Shown: positions 1 to 30,109 of the stretch, in pieces | Numbering within the stretch: the first letter of the stretch is position 1 | Layout of the letters: the number at the start of each line of letters is the position of its first letter | Assembly: GCA_028288965.1 (NCBI GenBank) | Contig: JAQGHD010000005.1 | Coordinates: forward strand, 1-47,529 | Reading direction: 5' to 3' | DNA from: Candidatus Saccharimonadota bacterium | GTDB taxonomy: Bacteria; Patescibacteriota; Saccharimonadia; Saccharimonadales; JAQGHD01 | DNA length: 47,529 nucleotides | The notes under the pieces: model-generated | What the model saw: the letters and a program-made list of their open reading frames with translations, nothing else | Told to the model about the DNA's origin: nothing | Database searches by the model: none | Made by a program: the position numbers and the translations under genes

Positions 1-398
1 AAAATAACAATGTTGCCGGGCTGCCCTGGCACAGCCGTGTTGGGGTAGTGCACAACAGCGTGCTGAAGGGCTTTTTGAAAAGCACCTTGATTGACCACCG
101 ATTGATCAAAATTAATTGGTGCCGTGACATTAATCTTATTGATGGTAATTTTTGGAGGTGCATTCTTATCAATATTTGAAGACGCCGTTTGGTTATCCAA
201 TGAAGAGACATGAGCGCGCCGGGAGTACACCCTATAGGCAATCTTGCCGCTGATTAATGAAGAGTTAAAGAAGCCAAATACTGCCAGGGCCACAAGCAGC
301 CCAGCCAACGGTGGTAGCAGGTGCTTAGTAAAGCTCATCCGCACGCGGCTGTTGGCTAGCTCTTTAGATTTTTTGGCAGACTTGGTTGATTTAGTCAT
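1..398 (-). CDS. Sortase (class D/E-like), N-terminal part, truncated at left window edge
   Basis: Manual translation from ATG at 398: MTKSTKSAKKSKELANSRVRMSFTKHLLPPLAGLLVALAVFGFFNSSLISGK...PPKITINKINVTAPINFDQSVVNQGAFQKALQHAVVHYPNTAVPGQPGNIVIF. N-terminal TM plus sortase-like 'HYPNTAVPGQPGNIVIF'. Catalytic H/C/R lie outside the window. Missed by the ORF track because it is open at the edge. Confidence 0.85.
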   Translation of the reverse strand, partial: MTKSTKSAKKSKELANSRVRMSFTKHLLPPLAGLLVALAVFGFFNSSLISGKIAYRVYSRRAHVSSLDNQTASSNIDKNAPPKITINKINVTAPINFDQSVVNQGAFQKALQHAVVHYPNTAVPGQPGNIVI

Positions 399-455
399 CG
401 TTATATATTATAGAACATTTCATGAATTATTGCAATACTCTTGCTTCCCTGGAGT

Positions 456-1625
456 CTAATCTGTCACCAGAGCTGGCTCAACAACGTAACGGCGAGTAGT
501 GTCGTTTTCCCATCGGCCATCGCTGTGTCTAAACTTCCGCAGCAATATTACTTCGACAAAAGCTCGCAAGAACACCAATAAGCTCACCCATCTAAACATA
601 TAGATCTGCGGAAAGGCACTCACCACATCCCAACGTTTGGTGCGACTGGCAGTCAAAAAGGTAATGATAAACGTCACAAAAACATCCACCACAAAGGCAC
701 CAGCCACTACTGTTGTACTGTGCCGAGTAATCGCTAAATAGGGTATCCAGACAAGGTAGCTGGCAAAAAATATCAAGTTTTGCAAAATCTGGTAGCTAAT
801 ATAGGCATCGATTGGCGACAAGCGTCGGCCAATTTTATAGCGGACAATGCTCTGTAAACCACCGCGATTCCAACGTGTAATTTGCTTGGTGTAGTCTTTT
901 AACGTCTTAGGGTCCTGGGTGTAAGCCACAGCATTTGGGATAAACTGTACGCTGCCCAGTTTTTTACGATGCAGCTGCATGGTCACATCAAAATCCTCGG
1001 TCAGTGATTTGTTATCAAAATCAACCGCGGCAAACACATCCGCTCTAAAGCAAGACGTTGGTCCGGGAATAACTGGTACTACATTAAGCAATACCTGCAA
1101 CCGTCTATGGATTTCCATACCAACGGTATACTCAAAAACTCGGTACTCGCTGACTCGTTTGCCCGGCAGGCTCCGAACATAGCCAGTTGCGGCAGCATTT
1201 TTAACCCGCAGTGCTTTTCTAAAAACCGAGAAATAATTGGGTGCGAAGGCTCCGTCGGCATCAGCAATATGAATCCAGCGATAGCACTCGGTGAGCTTAA
1301 ATCGTTTAGCGGCCTTGGTAATGGCCAGCCCTTTACCGCTGCGCTGCACCCGAATAACGTTGCCAGGAGGCAAAATAGACTTGGCGATAGCGCTGGTGAG
1401 GTCAGCAGAATTATCGTCTACTACATATATATGTTCACTTTTCATGCCGGCTGCAATGGCAGATCGCAGAGTGTTGCCGATTACTAGTTCTTCATTATGG
1501 GCAGAGATAAGCAAGCAAAGCATTGGCTTGCTGGTCCGCGGCGCCCGAACCTTGGAGGTCTTTTTGACCGCGCGGCGCAGCACATTAACGGATTGGGTTT
1601 TGGCCTTTCGGCGAAACAACTTCAT
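456..1625 (-). CDS. Membrane glycosyltransferase family 2 (processive poly-GlcNAc/hyaluronan-synthase-like)
   Basis: 389 aa; DADGAF, TEDFD and QITRWNRGG (QxxRW) motifs, C-terminal TM segments; ATG overlaps stop of upstream deacetylase (TAATG). Confidence 0.85.
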   Translation of the reverse strand: MKLFRRKAKTQSVNVLRRAVKKTSKVRAPRTSKPMLCLLISAHNEELVIGNTLRSAIAAGMKSEHIYVVDDNSADLTSAIAKSILPPGNVIRVQRSGKGLAITKAAKRFKLTECYRWIHIADADGAFAPNYFSVFRKALRVKNAAATGYVRSLPGKRVSEYRVFEYTVGMEIHRRLQVLLNVVPVIPGPTSCFRADVFAAVDFDNKSLTEDFDVTMQLHRKKLGSVQFIPNAVAYTQDPKTLKDYTKQITRWNRGGLQSIVRYKIGRRLSPIDAYISYQILQNLIFFASYLVWIPYLAITRHSTTVVAGAFVVDVFVTFIITFLTASRTKRWDVVSAFPQIYMFRWVSLLVFLRAFVEVILLRKFRHSDGRWENDTTRRYVVEPALVTD

Positions 1626-2521
1626 TAGTGCGCTCCCTGCTGAGCGGTATAGGCATTTATAACCTGGTTTACCGTGGCACTACGCAGCGGACTATTACCG
1701 ATCAGTTTCATTTGTTGCGCAAACTGATCTGGTGTGACGGCGAACTCCTCGTTACTACTATCAATCTGGTGGTAGGTCAGCACCAGCCAACCATTGTGCG
1801 TCCGAGCGGCATCAAGCAGTTTCTGAATATCTTGTAACTTTGTATTTTTACGAATTGAATACGACACAAAGTTCATGGGGTCAAAGTTGGCCTTAGTGTT
1901 AATGGCCTCCAGTTCACTGGAAGCTGGATCGCCCTCGGCATTTTTTTGTGACCGATAATACTTACTAATAAAGTTGAGTGTGTGGGCATTATAAGCGCCA
2001 TATGGCGAAGTAAAATCAGTAATCTTAACTCCGAATTCTTTGTCTAGCAGTTGCTGCGAATCATATAATTCGTGCTTTAGTTGTTGGTCGTCAAGCATCG
2101 TCAGATCAGCGTGACTTATAGTGTGGGCGGCAATATCGTGTCCGGCACTTTGCAAAGAGTGCAGTTGGGCCAGCGACATGTAACCATGGTTACTGAAGGT
2201 GTCGGTAATAATGTAGTGAGTAGTATGGAAGCCATTAGTCTGCAGGACCGGCAAAGCTTTGGTGTAGACCGATTCCCAGCCATCATCAAAGGTTATGGTC
2301 ACAACTGGTTCAGCAAAAGGGGCCAGTGGCTGAGCGGTTTGATCAATAGTGCGAGGCTGCAGAGCAGCCACTTGTGTAGTTTTTCGGGGATCTTTGTCTC
2401 CCGCCAGCCCTTTAACAAATTGAAACGAAGTGAATAACGGTAGCAAAACTACCGCCAAAACAAAAACTGACATTATGGTTTTGGCTATTTTCTGATGAGC
2501 TTGACGCTTTTTCTTACTCAT
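1625..2521 (-). CDS. Polysaccharide deacetylase (NodB/CE4), membrane-anchored
   Basis: 298 aa; N-terminal TM; TITFDDGW, AHTISHADLT, DFTSPYGAYN, LVLTYHQID CE4 motifs. Confidence 0.88.
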   Translation of the reverse strand: MSKKKRQAHQKIAKTIMSVFVLAVVLLPLFTSFQFVKGLAGDKDPRKTTQVAALQPRTIDQTAQPLAPFAEPVVTITFDDGWESVYTKALPVLQTNGFHTTHYIITDTFSNHGYMSLAQLHSLQSAGHDIAAHTISHADLTMLDDQQLKHELYDSQQLLDKEFGVKITDFTSPYGAYNAHTLNFISKYYRSQKNAEGDPASSELEAINTKANFDPMNFVSYSIRKNTKLQDIQKLLDAARTHNGWLVLTYHQIDSSNEEFAVTPDQFAQQMKLIGNSPLRSATVNQVINAYTAQQGAH

Positions 2522-2562
2522 AGCTTCTCCATAATGTCAGAGATTCACGCTTAGGTAGCGAC

Positions 2563-2724
2563 TTAACGATTAGCGTAGGCGTACAAAGCGCCCCACGTCA
2601 AAAGTCCAGCAACAACGGCAATTGCCACTGTTACAATCGTGTTACCACCGGTGTTAGGCAGTACTACTGCACCAGCTACTACGCTGGAGGTTGTAGCACC
2701 TAGAACTTGTCCTGTACCACTCAT
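2563..2724 (-). CDS. 53-aa LPxTG-type sorting-signal microprotein
   Basis: Manual translation: MSGTGQVLGATTSSVVAGAVVLPNTGGNTIVTVAIAVVAGLLTWGALYAYANR*. LPNTG followed by one TM and a C-terminal Arg; SD GAGGAAG just upstream of ATG; same strand as sortase/GT2/deacetylase. Confidence 0.8.
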   Translation of the reverse strand: MSGTGQVLGATTSSVVAGAVVLPNTGGNTIVTVAIAVVAGLLTWGALYAYANR

Positions 2725-2953
2725 AACTTCCTCACTTCTTATTGTTACTAAAATACCAGCAAATTATAAACTCTGTAGGCTTTTATGTCAAGCATTAAAT
2801 TATATTTTTGTTCTTTACGCAATTTCATGTGTTGTTAATGTTTTTGCTTATGCTTACCCCTGATGAGTATCTGTCTAAAATTTGACAAATCTAACGAATA
2901 AATGTAGAGTAACAATTAATTACATATAACTGGTGGGCAGTGGAGCGTGGTAC

Positions 2954-4942
2954 ATGATCAAGAAATTTGCCCTCTTTTTATCAACTATTTTCATAAGTTT
3001 AGCCTCTTTGTTACCGCTGGCGACGGCAACTGCTGCCGGCCCTAACTTAATCGTTAACCCATCTGTTGAAATTGCTAGTGGCACCCAGCCAACTGGCTGG
3101 AATCAGGACGTATGGGGCAAGAACACCACTACTTTCTCGCATAACACTGCCGAAGGCCACAGCGGCACTAAAAGCCTGTACATAAACATGACCAAGCGAA
3201 CGGGTGGTGATGCTAAATGGTATTTCACTAATGTACCGGTTAAACCAAACACCTCCTACACCTATAGCGAATTTTATGAATCAAACATTAAGACAGAGAT
3301 TGACGTAGCTTACACGACTGCGGCCAACACTGTTTCCTATAATAGCCTGGGAACTCCTGCAGCCGCCCCTACCTGGACTGCGGCCACCACCACCTTCACC
3401 ACCCCGGCTAATGTCCAAAGCTTGAGTGTTATGCACATCATCAACCGAGTTGGTTGGGTACAGACCGATGACTTTAGCCTGGTAGAAGGAACTGGTGTGG
3501 TCACACCACCAACCGCGCCGAGCGTCTCTATTACTGCACCTGTTGCCAACGCTACTGTAAGTGGCGCTGTAAACATTGATGCCAACGCCAGTGATGCCGT
3601 CGGCGTAGCCGGTGTCCAGTTCAAGCTTGATAACACCGCTTTAGGCGCCGAAGATACCACCGCCCCTTATGGCGTTAACTGGAACACCATTTCTGCCACC
3701 AACGGCACACACACCCTAACGGCTACCGCCCGAAACTCCAGTGGCCTCACGGCTACTGCCACCGAGACCGTCACCGTTCAAAACAATGTGGTTACTCCTC
3801 CGGGCAATAACCTTATCCTCAACTCATCACTCGAGACCACCAATGGTACCGCCCCAGCCAGCTGGTTATCCAGCAATTGGGGCAACAACACTTCTGCCTT
3901 TAGCTATCTAAACACCGGCCACACCGGTAGTCACAGCGTACGAGTTGACACGACCGCTTACACAGGTGGCGCTGCCAACTGGTACTACGCAGAGATTCCA
4001 GTGAGTAGCGGCAAAACGTACAAGTACGAGAACTGGTACCAAAGCAACGTTGATACCGAAGTTGATGCGGAAGTTACCATGACCGATGGCAGCGTCCAGT
4101 ACTTTTGGCTTGGCACCGTGCTCACCAATACTAATTGGACAAAATACAGCACCACCTTCACCCCACCTGCCGGCGCCAAAAGCATAGCCATTTACCAACT
4201 CCTAGCTAAGAAAGGCTACGTCGTTAGTGACGATTATTCCCTAAGCGAATACACACCCCTACCGCTAAACCGAGGCCTGGTAACTGTGACATTTGACGAT
4301 GGTTGGGCCAATCAGTACACCAACGCCTACCCGCTGCTACAGAAGTACGGACTGAATGCTGCGTTTTATATCATCTCGGGTGAGTTGGCTAACCAGCCAG
4401 ATTATATGAGCGGCAATCAAATATTGGCCCTAAGAAATAGCGGTAACGAAATTGGCTCGCACACCATTTCTCACCCCGACTTGACCACCAAGACCGTCGC
4501 CCAAATCACCAACGAAATGTCCCAGAGCCAGACCACATTACAGAATCTGCTGGGCCAACCAGTCACTGATTTTGCCTACCCATACGGTGCCTATAACGCC
4601 ACCACCATTGGCATCGGTAAGCAATATTACCAAAGCCAACGCAGCGTGAATGCCGGCTACAACACTAAAGAGAACTGGGACATCACTACGCTCAAGATCC
4701 ATGAAGTTGACAGCAACATCTCTCAGGCACAAGTCCAAGGCTGGATAGATGGCGCTATTGCCCAGAAGGCCTGGTTGATCTTGGTCTATCATGAGGTTGC
4801 TACCAAGCCCGTTGATCCAACTGACGCGCTATACACCACCCAGCCCTCAGACCTTGATGCCGAGCTGGCCTACCTTAAGAATTCTGGCGTAACGGTTAAA
4901 ACGGTTAACCAAGCGCTCAATGAAATTCTTCCGCAACTATAA
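2954..4942 (+). CDS. Secreted multidomain polysaccharide deacetylase: two CBM-like modules, Ig-like domain, NodB domain
   Basis: ORF opens at GTG 2933; ATG 2954 gives a clean signal peptide MIKKFALFLSTIFISLASLLPLATATAAG. Two NLI(V/L)N(P/S)S..E module copies, Ig-like 'APSVSITAPVANATVSG...', then VTFDDGW, SHTISHPDLT, DFAYPYGAYN, LILVYHE. Confidence 0.87.
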   Translation: MIKKFALFLSTIFISLASLLPLATATAAGPNLIVNPSVEIASGTQPTGWNQDVWGKNTTTFSHNTAEGHSGTKSLYINMTKRTGGDAKWYFTNVPVKPNTSYTYSEFYESNIKTEIDVAYTTAANTVSYNSLGTPAAAPTWTAATTTFTTPANVQSLSVMHIINRVGWVQTDDFSLVEGTGVVTPPTAPSVSITAPVANATVSGAVNIDANASDAVGVAGVQFKLDNTALGAEDTTAPYGVNWNTISATNGTHTLTATARNSSGLTATATETVTVQNNVVTPPGNNLILNSSLETTNGTAPASWLSSNWGNNTSAFSYLNTGHTGSHSVRVDTTAYTGGAANWYYAEIPVSSGKTYKYENWYQSNVDTEVDAEVTMTDGSVQYFWLGTVLTNTNWTKYSTTFTPPAGAKSIAIYQLLAKKGYVVSDDYSLSEYTPLPLNRGLVTVTFDDGWANQYTNAYPLLQKYGLNAAFYIISGELANQPDYMSGNQILALRNSGNEIGSHTISHPDLTTKTVAQITNEMSQSQTTLQNLLGQPVTDFAYPYGAYNATTIGIGKQYYQSQRSVNAGYNTKENWDITTLKIHEVDSNISQAQVQGWIDGAIAQKAWLILVYHEVATKPVDPTDALYTTQPSDLDAELAYLKNSGVTVKTVNQALNEILPQL

Positions 4943-5822
4943 ATACCAGTACGATCAAAAAGTTTCTTATCCCCGTCAGGTAGTCTTGAGCTTCTTGTTT
5001 GTTACTTTTCTACTGATCAGTTCAGCTAATTTCATATTGATTCAAGGACGATTAACTAACCCCTTGTTTGAGCTAGCCCTCCCTTGGGAGCATTCCACTA
5101 CCAGCAGCCAAGATGGCCAAGTCAAAGGCGTTAAGTCCAACCCTAATAAATCTACCAAAAGCAGCCCTGTCACTGGATCTGGCTCAAGTAAAACTTCAGG
5201 TACTGGCACCTCACCCAGCTCCAACGGTCCGGTGGATTTTAAGCACTTGGGTATCATCACTACCTATTTTTGGGCCGGCGAAGATGCCACAGGCGCTAAC
5301 GGTCATATCCCTAACGCCGCCAGTGCCTGGGACGAGCAATGGTCCACACACTACGGCGGTATTGATAATCCTGCCAGCCGAAATGGATACTTTCCGGCTA
5401 GTTTCACCCCTAAAGAAAATCCCTTCTACTTTGCCCTGCCATATAATGACTACGATGCTAAAGGCAAACGCAAAAGTACGGCTGGTTCTTGTCTAAATAG
5501 CGGCGACACCTCTGTTGCAGCTTATTCGTGGTGCAAAAATACCTGGATTGCCATTCGCCATAACGGCAAGGTTGCCTACGCTCAGTGGGAAGATGTTGGA
5601 CCCTTTCAAGAAGATGATTTTAACTATGTATTCGGCACCGCCCCGCCCAAAAATACTCGGGACGCCAAGGCCGGATTAGATGTTTCGCCCGCCTTGCGCA
5701 GTTACTTTGGCATGCAGGATGTTGATACGTGCGACTGGTCTTTTGTGCCGGCTAGCAGCGTGCCAACCGGCCCCTGGAAGCAAATCGTCACTACCAGTAA
5801 GGGTACGCCAGTAACTCAGTAG
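4920..5822 (+). CDS. Membrane-anchored secreted protein, possible double-psi beta-barrel (RlpA/expansin-like) domain
   Basis: 300 aa; N-terminal TM, Ser/Thr/Gly-rich linker, C-terminal domain with 'AYAQWEDVGPFQEDDFNYVFG' and 'GLDVSPALRSYFGM', reminiscent of DPBB proteins. Overlaps preceding gene by 23 nt. Confidence 0.6.
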   Translation: MKFFRNYKYQYDQKVSYPRQVVLSFLFVTFLLISSANFILIQGRLTNPLFELALPWEHSTTSSQDGQVKGVKSNPNKSTKSSPVTGSGSSKTSGTGTSPSSNGPVDFKHLGIITTYFWAGEDATGANGHIPNAASAWDEQWSTHYGGIDNPASRNGYFPASFTPKENPFYFALPYNDYDAKGKRKSTAGSCLNSGDTSVAAYSWCKNTWIAIRHNGKVAYAQWEDVGPFQEDDFNYVFGTAPPKNTRDAKAGLDVSPALRSYFGMQDVDTCDWSFVPASSVPTGPWKQIVTTSKGTPVTQ

Positions 5823-8931: not shown

Positions 8932-10344
8932 ATGTTAAAGAAATTAGCTATTGGTCTACTCACTCTAGGTATTACTCTAATGCCACTGGCCCGGCTTAAG
9001 GTCGCCCATGCCGCTGCCCCAAACTTAATTGCCAATCCTTCTATGGAAACCGCTGCCAGTGCTACGGCTCCCGCCAACTGGACCGCTAGCAACTGGGGCA
9101 CCAACACCGCTGCTTTTAGTTATGAATCTACTGGCCACACCGGCAGTCACAGCCTTAAGGCCACAGTAAGCGCTTACACCACTGGTGACGCCAAATGGCT
9201 GCCAACCGATGTCGCTGTGACCCCTGGCATTACCTATGACTACAACAACTGGTACCAAAGTAATGTTGATACTGAGGTTGACGCCCAGGTCACCGCTACC
9301 GATGGCACTTTCTCATACTTCTTAGTCGCCAAGGCTTTGGCTAGCCCGAGTGCTTGGGCTAAAGCCGATGGCCAGTTTACTGCCCCAGCTAACGCCAAGT
9401 CAGTTACCTTTTTCCAAGTTATTAACAAAGTTGGTTACATGCAAATCGATGACGCTAGCATGAGCGTTTACACACCGACACCTTTTGCCGGTGGCTTAGT
9501 AAGCGTCACGTTGGATGATGGTTGGACCAACCAATACACCAATGCTAAGCCCGTCTTTGATAAGTATGGCATTAAGGCTACTTACTTTATTATCTCTGGT
9601 TCACTGACTGATCAGCCAGATTACATGAGCGCTGCTCAGGTACAAACGCTTCACAACGACGGTAACGAAATTGGCTCACACACCATTACGCACCCCGATC
9701 TGACAACCATGACACAAGCTCAAATTACAAACGAAATGTCACAAAGCCAGACCACCTTGCAAAGCACAGTTGGGGTACCAGTTACTGATTTTGCCTACCC
9801 ATTTGGGGCTTACAACGCCGCCACTTTAGCTACGGGCAAGCAGTACTACCACAGCCAACGCAGCGTCAACGCCGGCTATAACACAAAAGATAACTGGGAC
9901 ATCACACAGCTGAAAATTCACGAAGTTGACAGCAACATTTCTCAAGCCGAGGTAAAAGGCTGGATCGATGGTGCCATTGCCCAAAAGTCTTGGTTGATCT
10001 TGGTCTACCATGAGATTGCCACCACGCCTACCGACCCTACCGATGCCCTCTACACCACTCAGCCAGCCGATTTGGATGCTGAGATGGCCTACCTAAAGAA
10101 CTCTGGCGTACCAGTAGTTACCGTAGCTCAGGCTTTGGCTCAACTTGAACCACAGGTCAATGGCCAGCCAGTTGTTAAGCCAGGTGATGTCAACGGCGAT
10201 AACGCCATAGATGCCCTAGACCTCAGCTTAGTATTAAGTAATTGGAATAAAACAGGTGCTACCAAGGCCCAAGGTGATCTTAATGCCGACGGTGTGGTTG
10301 ATGCGCTTGATCTATCAACAGTATTAGCAAATTGGAGTAAATAA
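8932..10344 (+). CDS. Secreted polysaccharide deacetylase with N-terminal CBM-like module and C-terminal type I-like dockerin
   Basis: Start ATG 8932 after AAGGAAG SD; signal peptide MLKKLAIGLLTLGITLMPLARLKVAHA; VTLDDGW, SHTITHPDLT, DFAYPFGAYN, LILVYHE; C-terminus GDVNGDNAIDALDLSLVLSNWNK...GDLNADGVVDALDLSTVLANWSK. Confidence 0.9.
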   Translation: MLKKLAIGLLTLGITLMPLARLKVAHAAAPNLIANPSMETAASATAPANWTASNWGTNTAAFSYESTGHTGSHSLKATVSAYTTGDAKWLPTDVAVTPGITYDYNNWYQSNVDTEVDAQVTATDGTFSYFLVAKALASPSAWAKADGQFTAPANAKSVTFFQVINKVGYMQIDDASMSVYTPTPFAGGLVSVTLDDGWTNQYTNAKPVFDKYGIKATYFIISGSLTDQPDYMSAAQVQTLHNDGNEIGSHTITHPDLTTMTQAQITNEMSQSQTTLQSTVGVPVTDFAYPFGAYNAATLATGKQYYHSQRSVNAGYNTKDNWDITQLKIHEVDSNISQAEVKGWIDGAIAQKSWLILVYHEIATTPTDPTDALYTTQPADLDAEMAYLKNSGVPVVTVAQALAQLEPQVNGQPVVKPGDVNGDNAIDALDLSLVLSNWNKTGATKAQGDLNADGVVDALDLSTVLANWSK

Positions 10345-10346
10345 CT

Positions 10347-11228
10347 ATGAAGACTAAATTTTTACAAGCCCTGGCAACAGTATCGATCGTTGTTAGCGCA
10401 TTAACAGGCGTAGCTCACGCCGCTGGTTCCGCTCACTTTAGCTTGAACCCAAGCTCGGGCAGCTACACTCAGAATAGTAGCTTTAGCGTGCAGGTTCGTG
10501 AGAATGGTTCAGCCGTTAACGTTGTGACCGCTAAGCTAACCTACGACGCATCTAAATTAAGCTGTAATAGTGTCAACGGTAGCGCTGCGTTCCCTAGCAC
10601 CATTAGCACAACCTGTGGTGGTGGCAGCGTAACTATAAGTGAATACGTAGCTCCTGGCTCAGCCCCAGTAGATGGCGACCAATTGGTTGGCACCATAAAC
10701 TTTACAGCTCTGGCTAGCACTGGTTCTTCAAGCGTAACCTTCGCTGCTGGTTCACAAATTGCCAGCAACGGCACCAACACTTGGGATGGCCAAACTACCG
10801 GCGGCACCTACAGCTTTACCGCACCTGCCGGTGGCATGGGCGGCGGTGGTTCTACGGGCGGTTCTACTGGCTCAACCGGTGGAACATCTGCCGGTGGTTC
10901 AACTACCAAAACTACTGCTCCACAGGTTGCTAACCCTGGCGTCGTAGCTACCAACAACCAAAGTGCAACTACTCCAGCTACTGATTCAGCCCAAACAGCT
11001 GTTAAGGCCGAAAGTACTACAGCTCCTGTAGTATCAGCCGCAACCAGCCAAAAAACTCCGGTAAGCAAACCAGCCTCCCGCACTGCTACCTGGATTGTTA
11101 GTGGCATTGTGCTTGTAGCCTTAGCTATTGCCGGTGCCTTCATATGGATGAAGCGCTACAACAAGCAGCTGTTTGCATCTGTTACTAGTAAGCTGTCATT
11201 TGGCCGCTTTGCTAGCAAAAAAGCCTAA
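10347..11228 (+). CDS. Cohesin-like domain protein with C-terminal TM anchor
   Basis: 293 aa; signal peptide; cohesin-like 'FSVQVRENGSAVNVVTAKLTYDASKLSCNSVNGS...VDGDQLVGTINFTALASTGSSSVTFAAGSQIASNGTNTWDGQTTGGTYSF'; Gly/Ser/Thr linker; TM ATWIVSGIVLVALAIAGAFIWMKR. 2 nt after deacetylase stop. Confidence 0.8.
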   Translation: MKTKFLQALATVSIVVSALTGVAHAAGSAHFSLNPSSGSYTQNSSFSVQVRENGSAVNVVTAKLTYDASKLSCNSVNGSAAFPSTISTTCGGGSVTISEYVAPGSAPVDGDQLVGTINFTALASTGSSSVTFAAGSQIASNGTNTWDGQTTGGTYSFTAPAGGMGGGGSTGGSTGSTGGTSAGGSTTKTTAPQVANPGVVATNNQSATTPATDSAQTAVKAESTTAPVVSAATSQKTPVSKPASRTATWIVSGIVLVALAIAGAFIWMKRYNKQLFASVTSKLSFGRFASKKA

Positions 11229-24379: not shown

Positions 24380-24524
24380 CAACCTCCCTTCTTGTTGCTT
24401 CCACCCATTTAGTAGTGCCACAATTATAGCAAATAAATGCAAGCCCGAATGCTAAGAAGTCGTCAAACTGTTAATGGTTAACGGCAATTTTTCTGCAAAG
24501 TCATATATAATATATGAAACGCTT

Positions 24525-26339
24525 ATGCATATATCAGACACCGTAACCGAAAAACTTCTGCGGGAATCTAAAAAGTTCACTCCCGAAGAACTTACTAATC
24601 TAAAAGAGCAGGCTAAGAGCGAGAAGAAACCGCTGCAAGACCTGGTTCTTAAGAACAACCTACTGACCGAAAAGGATTTGCTGAAGCTCTATGCCGAAGA
24701 GAGCGACACGCCATTTATTGAGTTCAATCCCAAAGAGCTTAAGCGTGATATTTTGCGTTTGATTCCAGAGCGCATTGCTCGGCAATACCGGGCGGTGTTG
24801 ATTGGCGTAGAAGACAACGGCGCCAAGCTGCTAGCCATGGAAGATCCTGATGACATTCAAGCGATTAACTTTTTGCAGAAACAGCTGGGCAGCGACCTAA
24901 AGGTGCACATAGCCACCAGTACCAATGTACAGGGCGCACTGGATCAATACAGGGGCAATATTAGTAGCGAACTAACGAAAGTCATGGAACCCGAAGGCGA
25001 GTCTGCGGAGAATGAAGAGCAGGTCAACGAAGAAGATCTAGCCGAAGACTCACCAATTGCCAAAACCGTGAACCTAATTATTGAGTACGGAGTGAAGGCC
25101 GGCGCCAGCGATATTCATATAGAACCACGCGAGGAATCAGTGTTGATTCGCTATCGAGTAGATGGCATTTTACGCGAGGCTAACAAGCTGCCTAAGAAAA
25201 TGCTCGGCGCGCTGGTGTCGCGTATAAAGATTTTGGCTAACTTAAAAATTGATGAACGCCGGGCGCCGCAAGATGGCCGCTTTAAGGTAGAAGTGGCTGG
25301 CGAAGTCTTTGCTATGCGTGTCTCCACCTTACCGATTGTAGACGGTGAAAAAGTGGTCATGCGTATTTTAAACGAGAGTAGTAAAGCACTGACGCTCGAA
25401 GATTTGGGTTATTGGGACGGTGCGCTCGATGCCCTTAAAAAAGCCATCGTCCAGCCTCACGGCATGATCCTGATGACCGGGCCGACAGGTTCTGGCAAGT
25501 CAACCAGCTTATTCAGTATTTTGAGTATGCTCAATAACCCGACGATTAACATTTCTACCGTGGAAGATCCAGTGGAATATCGCGTGCCCGGCACCAACCA
25601 AACCCAAGTAAATCCGGTAGCCGGCATGACGTTTGCCAATGGCCTGCGGGCCTTGCTGCGCCAAGACCCCAACATCATTATGGTGGGTGAGATTCGGGAT
25701 AACGAAACAGCCAGTCTGGCAGTGCAAGCTGCTTTAACCGGGCACTTGGTGTTTAGTACTTTGCACACCAATAACGCCGCCACCTGTTTGCCGCGACTTC
25801 TGGATATGAGCATTGAACCGTTTTTGATTGCCAGTACTGTGCGCGCCGTGGTGGGCCAGCGCCTAGTCCGTCGGCTATGTATTGATTGCCGCCAGGAATA
25901 CAATCCCGATCCAGAAGTACTCAAAGAAATTAGCGATATCTTTCATTTAGAGAGCACCGGCGTAATGAAACGACTGCATGAGCTAGAAACCGCCGCGCTA
26001 GAAAGTGGCATCGGTAAAACTAATCCTAGTAAGACCAACAAAGTAGCAGTCGATCAACTCAGCACCAGTGAGACAAAAATCGTTCGGCTTTGGAAGGCCA
26101 ACGAGGAGGGTTGTGAAACCTGCGGGCACAGTGGCTATAAAGGCCGGATCGGCATCTACGAAGTGCTTTCCAACAGCGGTGAAGTTCAAAAGATGATTGT
26201 TAGCAACTCCACCAGCGAGGCTATCGAGCAACAAGCTATCAAAGACGGCATGATTACCATGCAAGTGGATGGTTTTATTAAAGCCTTGCGCGGCCAAACC
26301 ACCGTTGAGGAAATCCTAAGAGTAACATCAGAAAGCTAG
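24525..26339 (+). CDS. pilB: Type IV pilus assembly ATPase PilB (GspE family)
   Basis: MHISDTVTEKLLRESKKF...; GPTGSGKSTSLFSIL, DPNIIMVGEIRDNETASLAVQAALTGHLVFSTLHTN, C-x2-C zinc motifs. Confidence 0.95.
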   Translation: MHISDTVTEKLLRESKKFTPEELTNLKEQAKSEKKPLQDLVLKNNLLTEKDLLKLYAEESDTPFIEFNPKELKRDILRLIPERIARQYRAVLIGVEDNGAKLLAMEDPDDIQAINFLQKQLGSDLKVHIATSTNVQGALDQYRGNISSELTKVMEPEGESAENEEQVNEEDLAEDSPIAKTVNLIIEYGVKAGASDIHIEPREESVLIRYRVDGILREANKLPKKMLGALVSRIKILANLKIDERRAPQDGRFKVEVAGEVFAMRVSTLPIVDGEKVVMRILNESSKALTLEDLGYWDGALDALKKAIVQPHGMILMTGPTGSGKSTSLFSILSMLNNPTINISTVEDPVEYRVPGTNQTQVNPVAGMTFANGLRALLRQDPNIIMVGEIRDNETASLAVQAALTGHLVFSTLHTNNAATCLPRLLDMSIEPFLIASTVRAVVGQRLVRRLCIDCRQEYNPDPEVLKEISDIFHLESTGVMKRLHELETAALESGIGKTNPSKTNKVAVDQLSTSETKIVRLWKANEEGCETCGHSGYKGRIGIYEVLSNSGEVQKMIVSNSTSEAIEQQAIKDGMITMQVDGFIKALRGQTTVEEILRVTSES

Positions 26340-26340
26340 C

Positions 26341-27564
26341 ATGCAATTCAGCTACACCGCTACTAACAAAGAAGGCCGAACCATAGAAGGCACTGCCGAG
26401 GCCCCCAATAAAGAAGCGTTAATTACTAACCTCACTCGACAATCACTCAAGCCCGTCGTGATTAAGTTACAGTCCGAACATGGCTTGCTCAGCAAGTTTG
26501 GTGGCCGCAAGAAAGTTAAGCTACGCGACTTAGTGATCTTTACGCGGCAGCTCAGTACCATGGTTAGCGCGGGAGTCCCCCTGGCCCGCTCACTTAACAC
26601 GCTGCAAAACCAAGCCGAGAATGCCTACTTTAAAACCGTTATTAGCAACATTACTAAAGATGTCGAGGGTGGTACCGCCCTCGGCGAAGCCTTTGGCAAA
26701 TATCCTAAGGTTTTTAGTGAAGTCTATATAAATATGGTCAAAGCTGGTGAAGCCGGCGGAATTTTAGATGATATTTTAAAGCGCTTGGCGCTGCAAATTG
26801 AGCAAGATGCCTCCATCCGCAAAAAAGTCAAAAGTGCCATGATGTACCCCCTGGTGATTATGTCCATTACGGTTGTGGCGTTCTTTGGCATTATGATTTT
26901 TGTGATTCCAAAGATTGGCAAGATTATGAAAGACCTGGGCGGCGCCAATGCTCAACTGCCCATTTATACCCGGGTGATGTTAAGCGCTAGTGATTTTATG
27001 CGAGCCAACGCTATTGTGCTAACCGTACTGCTAGTTATTGTGATCTACGTGATAAAGCGCTACATCAGCACGCCAAAAGGCAAGTATCAGCTTCACTCGT
27101 TGCTGCTTAGAATTCCAGTACTTAAGACCATTGTTATTAAAGTAGCGATTGCCCGCTTTGCCCGCACTTTTGCTTCACTAATGACCGCCGGAGTCGGCGT
27201 GCTCGATGCCCTGGAAGTCACTGGTGGTGCTATGGGCAATAAGGTGATTGAAGAAGAATTGCGCAACGCCGCTAAACAAGTCAAAAATGGCAAGCAGTTA
27301 TCGGAGCCGCTCAGCCAAAGTAAGCACTTTCCGCCAATTGTCAGCCAAATGCTCGCTGTCGGCGAAGAAACCGGCAAGATTGACACCATTTTGGTCAAAG
27401 TAGCTGATTTTTATGAAGAAGAAGTCGAAACCCTTGTCGATGGACTAAGCTCAATTATTGAACCGCTGATGATCGTGGTGCTCGGTAGTATTGTGGGCCT
27501 AATTGCCGCTAGCGTCATGGGCCCCATTGCCAACCTTACCAAAAACATCGGCAACGGAAATTAG
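26341..27564 (+). CDS. pilC: Type IV pilus inner membrane platform protein PilC (GspF family)
   Basis: 407 aa; FTRQLSTMVSAGVPLARSL, GGTALGEAFGKYPKVFSEVYINMVKAGEAGG, MLAVGEETGKID. Confidence 0.95.
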   Translation: MQFSYTATNKEGRTIEGTAEAPNKEALITNLTRQSLKPVVIKLQSEHGLLSKFGGRKKVKLRDLVIFTRQLSTMVSAGVPLARSLNTLQNQAENAYFKTVISNITKDVEGGTALGEAFGKYPKVFSEVYINMVKAGEAGGILDDILKRLALQIEQDASIRKKVKSAMMYPLVIMSITVVAFFGIMIFVIPKIGKIMKDLGGANAQLPIYTRVMLSASDFMRANAIVLTVLLVIVIYVIKRYISTPKGKYQLHSLLLRIPVLKTIVIKVAIARFARTFASLMTAGVGVLDALEVTGGAMGNKVIEEELRNAAKQVKNGKQLSEPLSQSKHFPPIVSQMLAVGEETGKIDTILVKVADFYEEEVETLVDGLSSIIEPLMIVVLGSIVGLIAASVMGPIANLTKNIGNGN

Positions 27565-27709
27565 CTCGTTTTCTTGAATCGAGCTTCCGAATCTTCTGCC
27601 ACGAATACAATCATCTCTGATCCTTTTCTGTGCGTGATCAGATCACCAGCTCGCTCATACCAGGTTCGTCGTTCCTGGCGTGCCTGCTGCAAGCGGGGAT
27701 TGCGAGCTC
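27561..27709 (-). pseudogene. Possible gene remnant convergent with pilC
   Basis: Open frame ARNPRLQQARQERRTWYERAGDLITHRKGSEMIVFVAEDSEARFKKTS* with no good start codon. Confidence 0.3.
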
Positions 27710-27840
27710 AAATGACTTTAAGCCGGTCTATTGACTGGCGTACGCTTATGGTTATAATCATTACTGATACTTATCCTTAGGCTATTACTGCTTGGATAAG
27801 ATCTTGTATAAAAAACAATAAACAAGGAGGGTGGGTCCTC

Positions 27841-28311
27841 ATGATCTCACTGAAAAGCAAACAACAAGGTTTCACCATTGTGGAACTTTTGATTGTTATC
27901 GTAGTGATCGGTATTTTAGCCGGTCTAGTTCTAGTAACCTTTAATGGTATTCAACAAAAAGCTCGTAACACCGAAAGACAAACTGACCTTAAGGCAATCC
28001 AAAGTCACTTGGAAGCCTACAACGCCCAAAATGGTCGCTATCCATTACTAAGTGATATGAACACGCAACCGGGTACCGGTAACTGGTGGATTCAAACCAA
28101 CATGAAAGGTTTGGACAAAGAAGCCTTGCGTGACCCCAAGAACAGCACGCACAGTTTAGCAAACGCCGCAACGGTTAACCAATACGCTTACGCCCCAACC
28201 GCTGATGACGGTTCAGCCTGTGACAACACTGCCACCGATTGTGGTAAGTACACACTGACCTCCAAGCTCGAGGGTGGTGCTGCGGACTACGTTCTTAACA
28301 GTTTGAACTAA
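27841..28311 (+). CDS. Type IV pilin (major pilin candidate)
   Basis: 156 aa; QQGFTIVELLIVIVVIGILAGLVLVTFNG; strong SD AGGAGGG; own terminator downstream. Confidence 0.93.
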   Translation: MISLKSKQQGFTIVELLIVIVVIGILAGLVLVTFNGIQQKARNTERQTDLKAIQSHLEAYNAQNGRYPLLSDMNTQPGTGNWWIQTNMKGLDKEALRDPKNSTHSLANAATVNQYAYAPTADDGSACDNTATDCGKYTLTSKLEGGAADYVLNSLN

Positions 28312-28332
28312 AAATATCTTTCAAACTTGATC

Positions 28333-28365
28333 AAAACCCGGGACATAAGCACCCGGGTTTTCTTC
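28333..28365 (+). terminator. Rho-independent terminator after pilin
   Basis: AAAACCCGGG-acataagca-CCCGGGTTTTCTTC, perfect stem. Confidence 0.9.
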
Positions 28366-28486
28366 TTTCTGATTGAGAAGAAGCTTATGGTTACATATAA
28401 TGGAGAGTAGTTATGGCAGGCAATGACACACCTTCTACACTTGGGCTAGTTTTGGTGTGCTCCGGCGCGGCGCCAGTGAGCGGTAT

Positions 28487-30109
28487 ATGAAATACCGTGA
28501 ACGCGTACCGCAAAGGAGCAAGCTGAAACTAGGCGGCAGGCCAGCAGGTGCAGTAGGCGTGCAAGAGGGTTATACAATTGTCGAGTTAGTCATAGGTATG
28601 ACCGTATTTGTAGTGATTGCCCTTAGCGCCTTTACCCTATATTCATCACTCGTTTCTAGTGCTGTGCTAGCCAAGCAAAAAGCCGTGGCGCTGTCTTTAG
28701 GCACCAACCAAATGGAATATCTAAAATCCTTACCTTATAACAACTTAGCCGTGGCTGGGGGTAGTATTGTTACCGCTAATCCGATTCCAGCCACCAGTAA
28801 TATTACGGTGAACAATGTGTTGTATGTAGTTAAAACCGACATTAGCTATACCGACGACGCCTTTGATGGCTGTGGCTCATATCCGAATCTGGCGTTAAAA
28901 CAACAGTATTGCCGCAACTATCCAGCGCCCGCGGGCGCGCCAGCCACAGATACTAACCCGGCCGATTATAAAATTGCCCATGTAGCTGTTTACACCAAAA
29001 GCAATATTAAACTAGCTGAGGTTGATACGGAAATCTCGGCTCGGGTAGCCGAAACGGCTAGTACGACCGGTGCTTTGTTTGTGAGCGTACTGGATGATGA
29101 CGGCAACCCGGTAGTGGGTGCCTTGGTGCACGTTACCGATACCACACTGAACCCTAGCGTGAATGTATCCGATAATACCGACACCAGCGGCAATGCTATT
29201 TTTTATGGTTTGCCACCGGACACCACTGGCTACGATTACGTGGTGACGGCAAGCAACACTGGCTACTCCACGTTAACCACGATTGCACCAAGCGGGTCTT
29301 TGCAGCCAACCTACCCAAGCAAACAGATATTTACACAGTTATCTTCCTTTGTGACCCTTACACTCAAGCCGCAAGGCACCAACAGCTTAGTGCTGGAAAC
29401 CACCGATGCCAGCGGCAATCCGCTCGGCAGTATGAAAGTATACGTAAAGGGTGGCTACAAAAAATACACTAACACCGCCGATACCAGCTACTACTACGAC
29501 ACCCTGAGTCCTACTGACACCCGGCCCCAAACCGATGGCGGCGGTTTTACTTCCCTGAGCAACCTGGTACCCGGCAACTATATATTTTGTGGCGACACCG
29601 GCTCTAGCAGCTGTGGTATTGGCGGCACACCGTATTACTTAGCTGCGGCCGTGCCGTACGGTGGGCTGAACTCACTCGATCCAATTACTGTCCCTACATA
29701 TGATGCCGGCTCGCCACCTACCCAAACCTTCACATATAATGGTCAGCCCTTCTTGCAAAAAGTGCGCTTGATTATGACCAACAACATCAATTTCCCACGA
29801 ATATTTACCCTAAACCCTTCGGAACTCAGCCTGGCTAGTGCCACACTCAACCCTTATGCCTTTGTCATTACCGGCGCTAACCTGCCCTGCAATACATCAG
29901 GTGGCTGCTCTACGACAGTCCGCTTTACCCAAGGCAGCAACACCTACACGGCCACCTGTAACGGCAACGGCTTAAACACTCAGCTTAATTGCACCGCTAA
30001 TCTTACAGGTATTACTGCTGGCAATCTACAACTGACCATCATTGCTAATGGCTTTACCCTAAACTTGCCGGATACGCCGCTGTTAGGAGGATTAAATGCC
30101 GTCCCATAA
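28487..30109 (+). CDS. Large prepilin-like protein with extracellular repeat/Ig-like domains
   Basis: GYTIVELVIGMTVFVVIALSAFTLYSSL prepilin helix, then 'GALFVSVLDDDGNPVVGALVHVTDTTLNPSVNVSDNTDTSGNAIFYGLPP' carboxypeptidase-regulatory-like repeat and another related module. Listed ORF starts at 28457; ATG 28487 also possible. Confidence 0.8.
   Translation: MKYRERVPQRSKLKLGGRPAGAVGVQEGYTIVELVIGMTVFVVIALSAFTLYSSLVSSAVLAKQKAVALSLGTNQMEYLKSLPYNNLAVAGGSIVTANPIPATSNITVNNVLYVVKTDISYTDDAFDGCGSYPNLALKQQYCRNYPAPAGAPATDTNPADYKIAHVAVYTKSNIKLAEVDTEISARVAETASTTGALFVSVLDDDGNPVVGALVHVTDTTLNPSVNVSDNTDTSGNAIFYGLPPDTTGYDYVVTASNTGYSTLTTIAPSGSLQPTYPSKQIFTQLSSFVTLTLKPQGTNSLVLETTDASGNPLGSMKVYVKGGYKKYTNTADTSYYYDTLSPTDTRPQTDGGGFTSLSNLVPGNYIFCGDTGSSSCGIGGTPYYLAAAVPYGGLNSLDPITVPTYDAGSPPTQTFTYNGQPFLQKVRLIMTNNINFPRIFTLNPSELSLASATLNPYAFVITGANLPCNTSGGCSTTVRFTQGSNTYTATCNGNGLNTQLNCTANLTGITAGNLQLTIIANGFTLNLPDTPLLGGLNAVP

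Follow-up and report, generated by a model that had tools for sequence, protein, structure and literature searches.

A pair of adjacent genes in a 47,529-nt stretch of Candidatus Saccharimonadota DNA (hereafter the window, taken at its full length) encodes a secreted polysaccharide deacetylase that ends in a dockerin (P0001), followed by a membrane-anchored protein with one cohesin (P0002). We consider it likely that the best explanation is a two-gene membrane tether for a deacetylase whose most probable target is the cell's own exopolysaccharide. To judge from the sequences, the dockerin of P0001 very probably binds the cohesin of P0002. Domains, gene order, the putative transmembrane (TM) segment, conservation and neighbourhood can be read from the DNA (Table 1), and the gene pair is one case of a recurrent module rather than a lineage oddity.

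Table 1 Features of the window around the dockerin-cohesin gene pair (positions in the window).
Feature	Position	Strand	Basis or remark
P0001, secreted polysaccharide deacetylase with C-terminal dockerin, 470 aa	8932..10344	+	Pfam
NodB/CE4-type deacetylase domain of P0001	9496..9843	+	Pfam and metal-binding motifs
Type I dockerin of P0001, two 12-residue calcium loops	10180..10341 (loops 10186-10221, 10276-10311)	+	
P0002, membrane-anchored cohesin protein, 293 aa	10347..11228	+	2 nt downstream of P0001
Cohesin domain of P0002	10422..10832	+	PF00963, leave-one-out profile, AF2 and Foldseek
Predicted C-terminal TM helix (11094-11150) and basic tail (11151-11225) of P0002	11094..11225	+	Hydropathy, charge
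GT2 glycosyltransferase, processive type, PgaC/NodC-like	456..1625	-	TEDFD and QITRW motifs
PDA1, second deacetylase, overlaps GT2 gene	1625..2521	-	Polysacc_deac_1 91.6 bits
Tiny LPNTG-TM protein, likely sortase substrate	2563..2724	-	
Sortase, N-terminal part, cut by contig start	3..398	-	21.5 bits, below cut-off
PDA2, third deacetylase, without dockerin, has Big_7	2954..4942	+	
Secreted 300-aa protein, without Pfam family, overlaps PDA2	4920..5822	+	

P0001 has a signal peptide, and a Pfam scan placed in it a CBM_4_9-like domain, a NodB-type deacetylase and a C-terminal Dockerin_1. Polysacc_deac_1 scored 98.8 bits, and CBM_4_9 scored 25.9 bits, exactly on its Pfam cut-off. Together with the profile score, the retained metal-binding Asp and His motifs, TLDDG (D195, D196) and HTITH (H250, H254; H-x3-H), place the enzyme in the NodB/CE4 family (PF01522). 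Dockerin_1 (PF00404) reached 38.4 bits against a cut-off of 22.9. The calcium loops, DVNGDNAIDALD (residues 419-430) and DLNADGVVDALD (residues 449-460), carry Asp or Asn at calcium positions 1, 3, 5, 9 and 12, and Ala-Leu stands at contact positions 10/11 in both repeats, so that the dockerin is symmetric. Its AF2 model, built on an alignment of two sequences, had a pLDDT of 87.6; the top 28 PDB matches of this model were all dockerin-bearing entries, with a best E of 6e-3 that is weak because the domain is small. An earlier note on this DNA had described a type I dockerin tail of two calcium-loop repeats, as well as open reading frames at 8932-10344 and 10347-11228 separated by 2 nt, and both descriptions hold.

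P0002 consists of a signal peptide, a cohesin, a Gly/Ser/Thr linker, a C-terminal TM helix and a basic tail, with the anchor and signal peptide called from hydropathy and charge, without a dedicated topology predictor. The helix (residues 250-268) has a hydropathy of 2.5 over 19 residues, and the tail, KRYNKQLFASVTSKLSFGRFASKKA, contains seven K/R and no D/E (+7); because of this helix and tail, the cohesin is predicted to lie outside and the tail in the cytoplasm. In scans of the whole of P0002, NCBIfam gave no cohesin and Pfam no match at all, which taken alone would look like a refutation of its cohesin. The domain-only scan resolved this: the cohesin domain scored 28.0 bits against Cohesin (PF00963; cut-off 24.1), and a six-frame genome search also recovered it above the cut-off, at 27.1 bits. 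The decisive test used a profile of 46 further Saccharimonadia cohesins that did not include P0002: the domain scored 130 bits (E 1.6e-39 in a search of 480 window frames), whereas 2,000 shuffled versions of it reached at most 9.8 bits against the same profile.

Structural comparisons pointed the same way. Searching the PDB with the P0002 sequence by itself returned matches to its Gly/Ser linker and nothing else; the 47-sequence cohesin profile returned 19 matches, nearly all of them named scaffoldins, cohesins or cohesin-bearing NagJ, led by one from C. cellulolyticum (E 1.7e-9), with C. perfringens NagJ lower down. The AF2 model of the domain (two-sequence alignment), of moderate confidence at a pLDDT of 69, is a nine-strand sandwich with the cohesin fold, and its first 21 Foldseek matches in the PDB were all cohesins (best E 8.9e-7). 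These results confirm that P0002 carries a true cohesin domain. It is scarcely credible that the pair is a chance resemblance, an EF-hand-like tail next to an unrelated secretory beta-sandwich: the whole-protein hmmscan without a cohesin match would suit that reading, but the domain-only score, leave-one-out profile, fold and synteny all agree against it, and the leave-one-out E value set beside shuffles of at most 9.8 bits refutes it. What the earlier note had proposed here, a dockerin-tailed enzyme adjoining a membrane-anchored single cohesin with a beta-sandwich, signal peptide, linker, TM segment and basic tail, is thus borne out, as are the HMM searches it named as a check, with both families above cut-off (the cohesin in the domain-only scan). 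A promoter and terminator scan gave nothing above chance.

In the source genome (916 kb) we found one dockerin and one cohesin, those of P0001 and P0002; because the genome is 94% complete, further copies could be missing. Among 393 Saccharimonadia genomes, many of them fragmented assemblies, dockerins occur in 87 and Pfam cohesins in 41, with both domains in 35 (hypergeometric P 3.5e-20); the lineage profile raises the cohesin genomes to 65 and those with both domains to 44 (P 1e-18), both P values counting related genomes as independent. The stronger point is the spread over 11 families, in which 29 genomes have a dockerin gene and directly after it a cohesin gene, with <300 nt between the domains. 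The pair is thus kept together in relatives in the same head-to-tail order, which answers the synteny check suggested by the earlier note, but the note's description of the module as unusual did not survive: the module recurs in the lineage with varying cargo, and some relatives have multi-cohesin scaffoldin-like proteins. Cohesins are also widespread in the phylum, with matches in 74 of 323 genomes. A contig scan returned four loci, one of which has the pair (G209, the complete genome CP025011.1 of Candidatus Saccharibacteria bacterium YM_S32_TM7_50_20); the deacetylases at the other three align only up to about residue 409-412, with no cohesin nearby.

Unpaired use of either domain exists in the class as well. 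With the lineage profile, 43 of the 87 dockerin genomes have no detectable cohesin, none being visible by eye in two of their loci either, and 21 cohesin genomes have no detectable dockerin. Such genomes lend some weight to the idea that cohesin and dockerin are real but have other partners, with the dockerin entering a cohesin that belongs to a neighbour or host, or with the cohesin serving as an adhesin. We hold this to be improbable for P0001 and P0002, whose domains are each the sole copy found in the genome and whose genes nearly touch; moreover, 42 of the 44 genomes with both domains have them within 5 kb of each other.

Docking of the two proteins on each other is also suggested by patterns within the dockerins. 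Positions 10, 11, 17, 18 and 22 are the specificity determinants of dockerin repeats, and mesophilic clostridia have Ala/Leu(Ile) at 10/11 (PMC5748583); positions 10/11 are given as specificity positions in PMC8063739 too. In a set of 42 Saccharimonadia dockerins, the first repeat matches the second at 10/11 in 74%, against 22% after random exchange of repeats among the proteins (0 of 5,000), whereas agreement at non-contact loop positions barely differs (37% versus 29% shuffled). It is thus chiefly the contact face, together with its helix, that is symmetric between repeats, the expected mark of dual-mode (two-way) docking. Across 38 neighbouring pairs, the more alike the dockerin contacts, the more alike the cohesins, between families too (Spearman 0.295, 0 of 1,000 permutations), against 0.142 (19 of 1,000) for the non-contact loop control, a correlation that could arise from joint inheritance of both genes without coevolution.

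The cargo carried by the dockerin varies among relatives. Among the head-to-tail pairs, five genomes from four families (the source genome, G000, together with G209, G117, G059 and G256) have a deacetylase in this role, and G144 has a subtilase; the remaining head-to-tail dockerin proteins are mostly surface proteins of Big_7, Fn3, CARDB or cadherin-like, or Ig/Fn3, type. The downstream partner typically has a signal peptide, a cohesin, a linker and a C-terminal TM segment. G089 and G267 have three genes in a row, for a dockerin protein, a protein with both a cohesin and a dockerin, and a TM-anchored cohesin, possibly a three-part chain; in genus g36 the series starts with a protein that joins three cohesins to one dockerin and continues with a one-cohesin and then a two-cohesin TM protein. 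On a small scale, both arrangements appear to follow the logic of primary and anchoring scaffoldins. Possible linear chains in family f10 lie at L080:3992-7680, L090:3738-7569 and L098:106-2414 (the last covering the first two members), and scaffoldin-like clusters of g36 at L094:5819-12436, L095:5670-12395 and L096:3-6400 (3-4 cohesins in the L096 protein). Cellulosome membership was rejected for the pair itself: the source genome yielded one cohesin and no multi-cohesin scaffoldin, such proteins being confined to relatives, and its one dockerin sits on a deacetylase, compared with the several plant-wall enzymes that a cellulosome requires.

The genes near the pair bear on its substrate. Three of the four deacetylases of the source genome lie within 8 kb in the window, and over their common part PDA2 and P0001 are 66% identical. 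The GT2-sortase-LPNTG cluster occurs in all five genomes with a deacetylase-dockerin pair; it adjoins the pair in G059, G117 and G256 and lies about 6 kb from it in the source genome. The G209 cluster, made up of an LPNTG protein, a sortase and a GT2 that has 60% identity to that of the window, lies some 31 kb away from the pair, with a deacetylase and a relative of the 300-aa protein close by. The GT2 of the window falls below every equivalog cut-off (72.6 of 422.3 bits for the PgaC_IcaA model) and IcaB model scores are 27.7-35.1 of 248.35, values that do not assign PNAG synthesis (PgaC/IcaA plus PgaB/IcaB) to the locus.

Several further features of this neighbourhood were recorded. The sortase appears to be split between two contig starts: its first half is at window 3-149 (G000:C9) and a second half scores 56.3 bits on G000:C15:10-225, so the C-terminal half is probably on contig C15, suggesting that C9 and C15 are neighbours. 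The LPNTG-TM/sortase/GT2 clusters lie at window 3-2763 (minus strand), L138:5009-7119, L088:844-3022, L141:5121-7258 and L165:4004-6484, in five genomes of four families, and in this recurrent cluster a likely sortase substrate of 50-80 aa travels with a polysaccharide synthase. The 300-aa protein (window 4920-5822, L165:8186-9091) is kept beside a CBM-deacetylase in two families. Farther along, window 24474-30109 holds type IV pilus-type genes, a PilB-like ATPase with an MshEN domain and the genes following it.

Because a processive-type GT2, a sortase, an LPNTG protein and two further deacetylases lie nearby, the docked deacetylase may act on the cell's own exopolysaccharide, a call that we regard as evenly balanced. 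The exopolysaccharide link would be limited to a sub-type of the module, since the G209 cluster is 31 kb from its pair and the cargo in the 29 genomes is mostly not a deacetylase. The earlier note had allowed for action on the cell's own or a host's envelope; the neighbourhood favours a self-made exopolysaccharide and makes the host envelope the less favoured of these. Still, the same tether could hold an enzyme that acts on peptidoglycan, its own or a host's, or on a host glycan, altering attachment or lysozyme sensitivity during epibiosis. Many NodB-family enzymes do act on peptidoglycan, and weak matches to PgdA-type models were seen, although all of these fall below the PgdA equivalog cut-offs. 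Cultivated Saccharibacteria grow on host Actinobacteria, and host glycans have been named, as a speculation, as the target of the Southlakia dockerin protein (PMC10633639). Against this, the GT2-sortase-LPNTG cluster and the grouped deacetylases favour a self-made polymer, and we rate action on peptidoglycan or a host glycan as unlikely.

Under the preferred reading, a tether for a deacetylase acting on self-made exopolysaccharide, the upstream gene would supply an exported deacetylase with its C-terminal dockerin, and the downstream gene would place a single cohesin outside the cytoplasmic membrane through the C-terminal TM helix, the basic tail being on the cytoplasmic side. Once exported, the dockerin would fold with calcium and plug into the cohesin through one of two near-identical faces, so that a flexible Gly/Ser/Thr arm would hold the enzyme at the membrane. 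The nearby GT2 synthase would make an N-acetylated exopolysaccharide that is partly de-N-acetylated on emergence, as IcaB/PgaB do for PNAG. Within this scheme we infer the calcium dependence of docking, the membrane topology and the biological role of the tether.

Known systems share parts of this design. The IcaA/IcaB and PgaC/PgaB poly-GlcNAc systems likewise have a processive-type GT2 near NodB deacetylases, and their deacetylases rely on a lipid anchor or surface retention; here a cohesin-dockerin tether is proposed instead, and scores stay below all equivalog cut-offs. C. perfringens NagJ/NagH (2ozn, 2jh2, 2w1n), whose enzymes are deposited as O-GlcNAcase and hyaluronoglucosaminidase, provide a non-cellulosomal cohesin-dockerin with profile and fold matches, but their cohesin is part of another secreted enzyme, whereas P0002 would be a dedicated membrane socket near an EPS-type locus. 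The clostridial type I system (C. cellulolyticum 2vn5/2vn6, C. acetobutylicum 6kgc-6kgf) shares the cohesin fold and profile and the duplicated calcium loops, and in mesophilic species also the Ala-Leu at 10/11 seen in P0001 (PMC5748583). It differs from the pair described here, which has one cohesin, a TM anchor, one dockerin enzyme and no cellulase context; unlike in the clostridial system, no cellulose-binding module was found here.

Within the candidate phyla radiation (CPR), both modules have been reported in Ca. Shapirobacterales, where cohesins and a dockerin were interpreted as a cellulosome for carbon metabolism (PMC9123182). The epibiotic Saccharibacterium Southlakia epibionticum also combines a dockerin protein with EPS genes: SEML1_0315, the dockerin protein, is essential, and SEML1_0081-0083 are essential or important for growth; the text of that paper mentions no cohesin and does not describe the cargo as a deacetylase (PMC10633639). 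Dockerin proteins in L013, L003 and other f2/g6 loci, from genomes without a detectable cohesin, are relevant to this essential protein. Our literature search, with subscription papers mostly outside it, found no description of a paired cohesin-dockerin tether in Saccharibacteria.

Cohesin-dockerin binding is the textbook assembly device of cellulosomes, and the few cultivated Saccharibacteria (TM7) are host-attached, as the source bacterium probably is. In genomes of about 1 Mb, across many families of this group, the same device seems to serve as a one-to-one membrane tether. More broadly, and tentatively, cohesin-dockerin in Saccharibacteria may be a general surface plug-in, with interchangeable cargo (deacetylase, protease, adhesins) in membrane sockets, chains or multi-cohesin scaffolds in some genera, and, in the deacetylase sub-type, a link to a locus for self-made exopolysaccharide that life on a host requires. 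The pair offers a partner hypothesis for dockerin proteins in a group whose genetically tractable species has an essential one, makes it testable how Saccharibacteria build their surface, and supplies engineering with natural single-pair tethers of small size.
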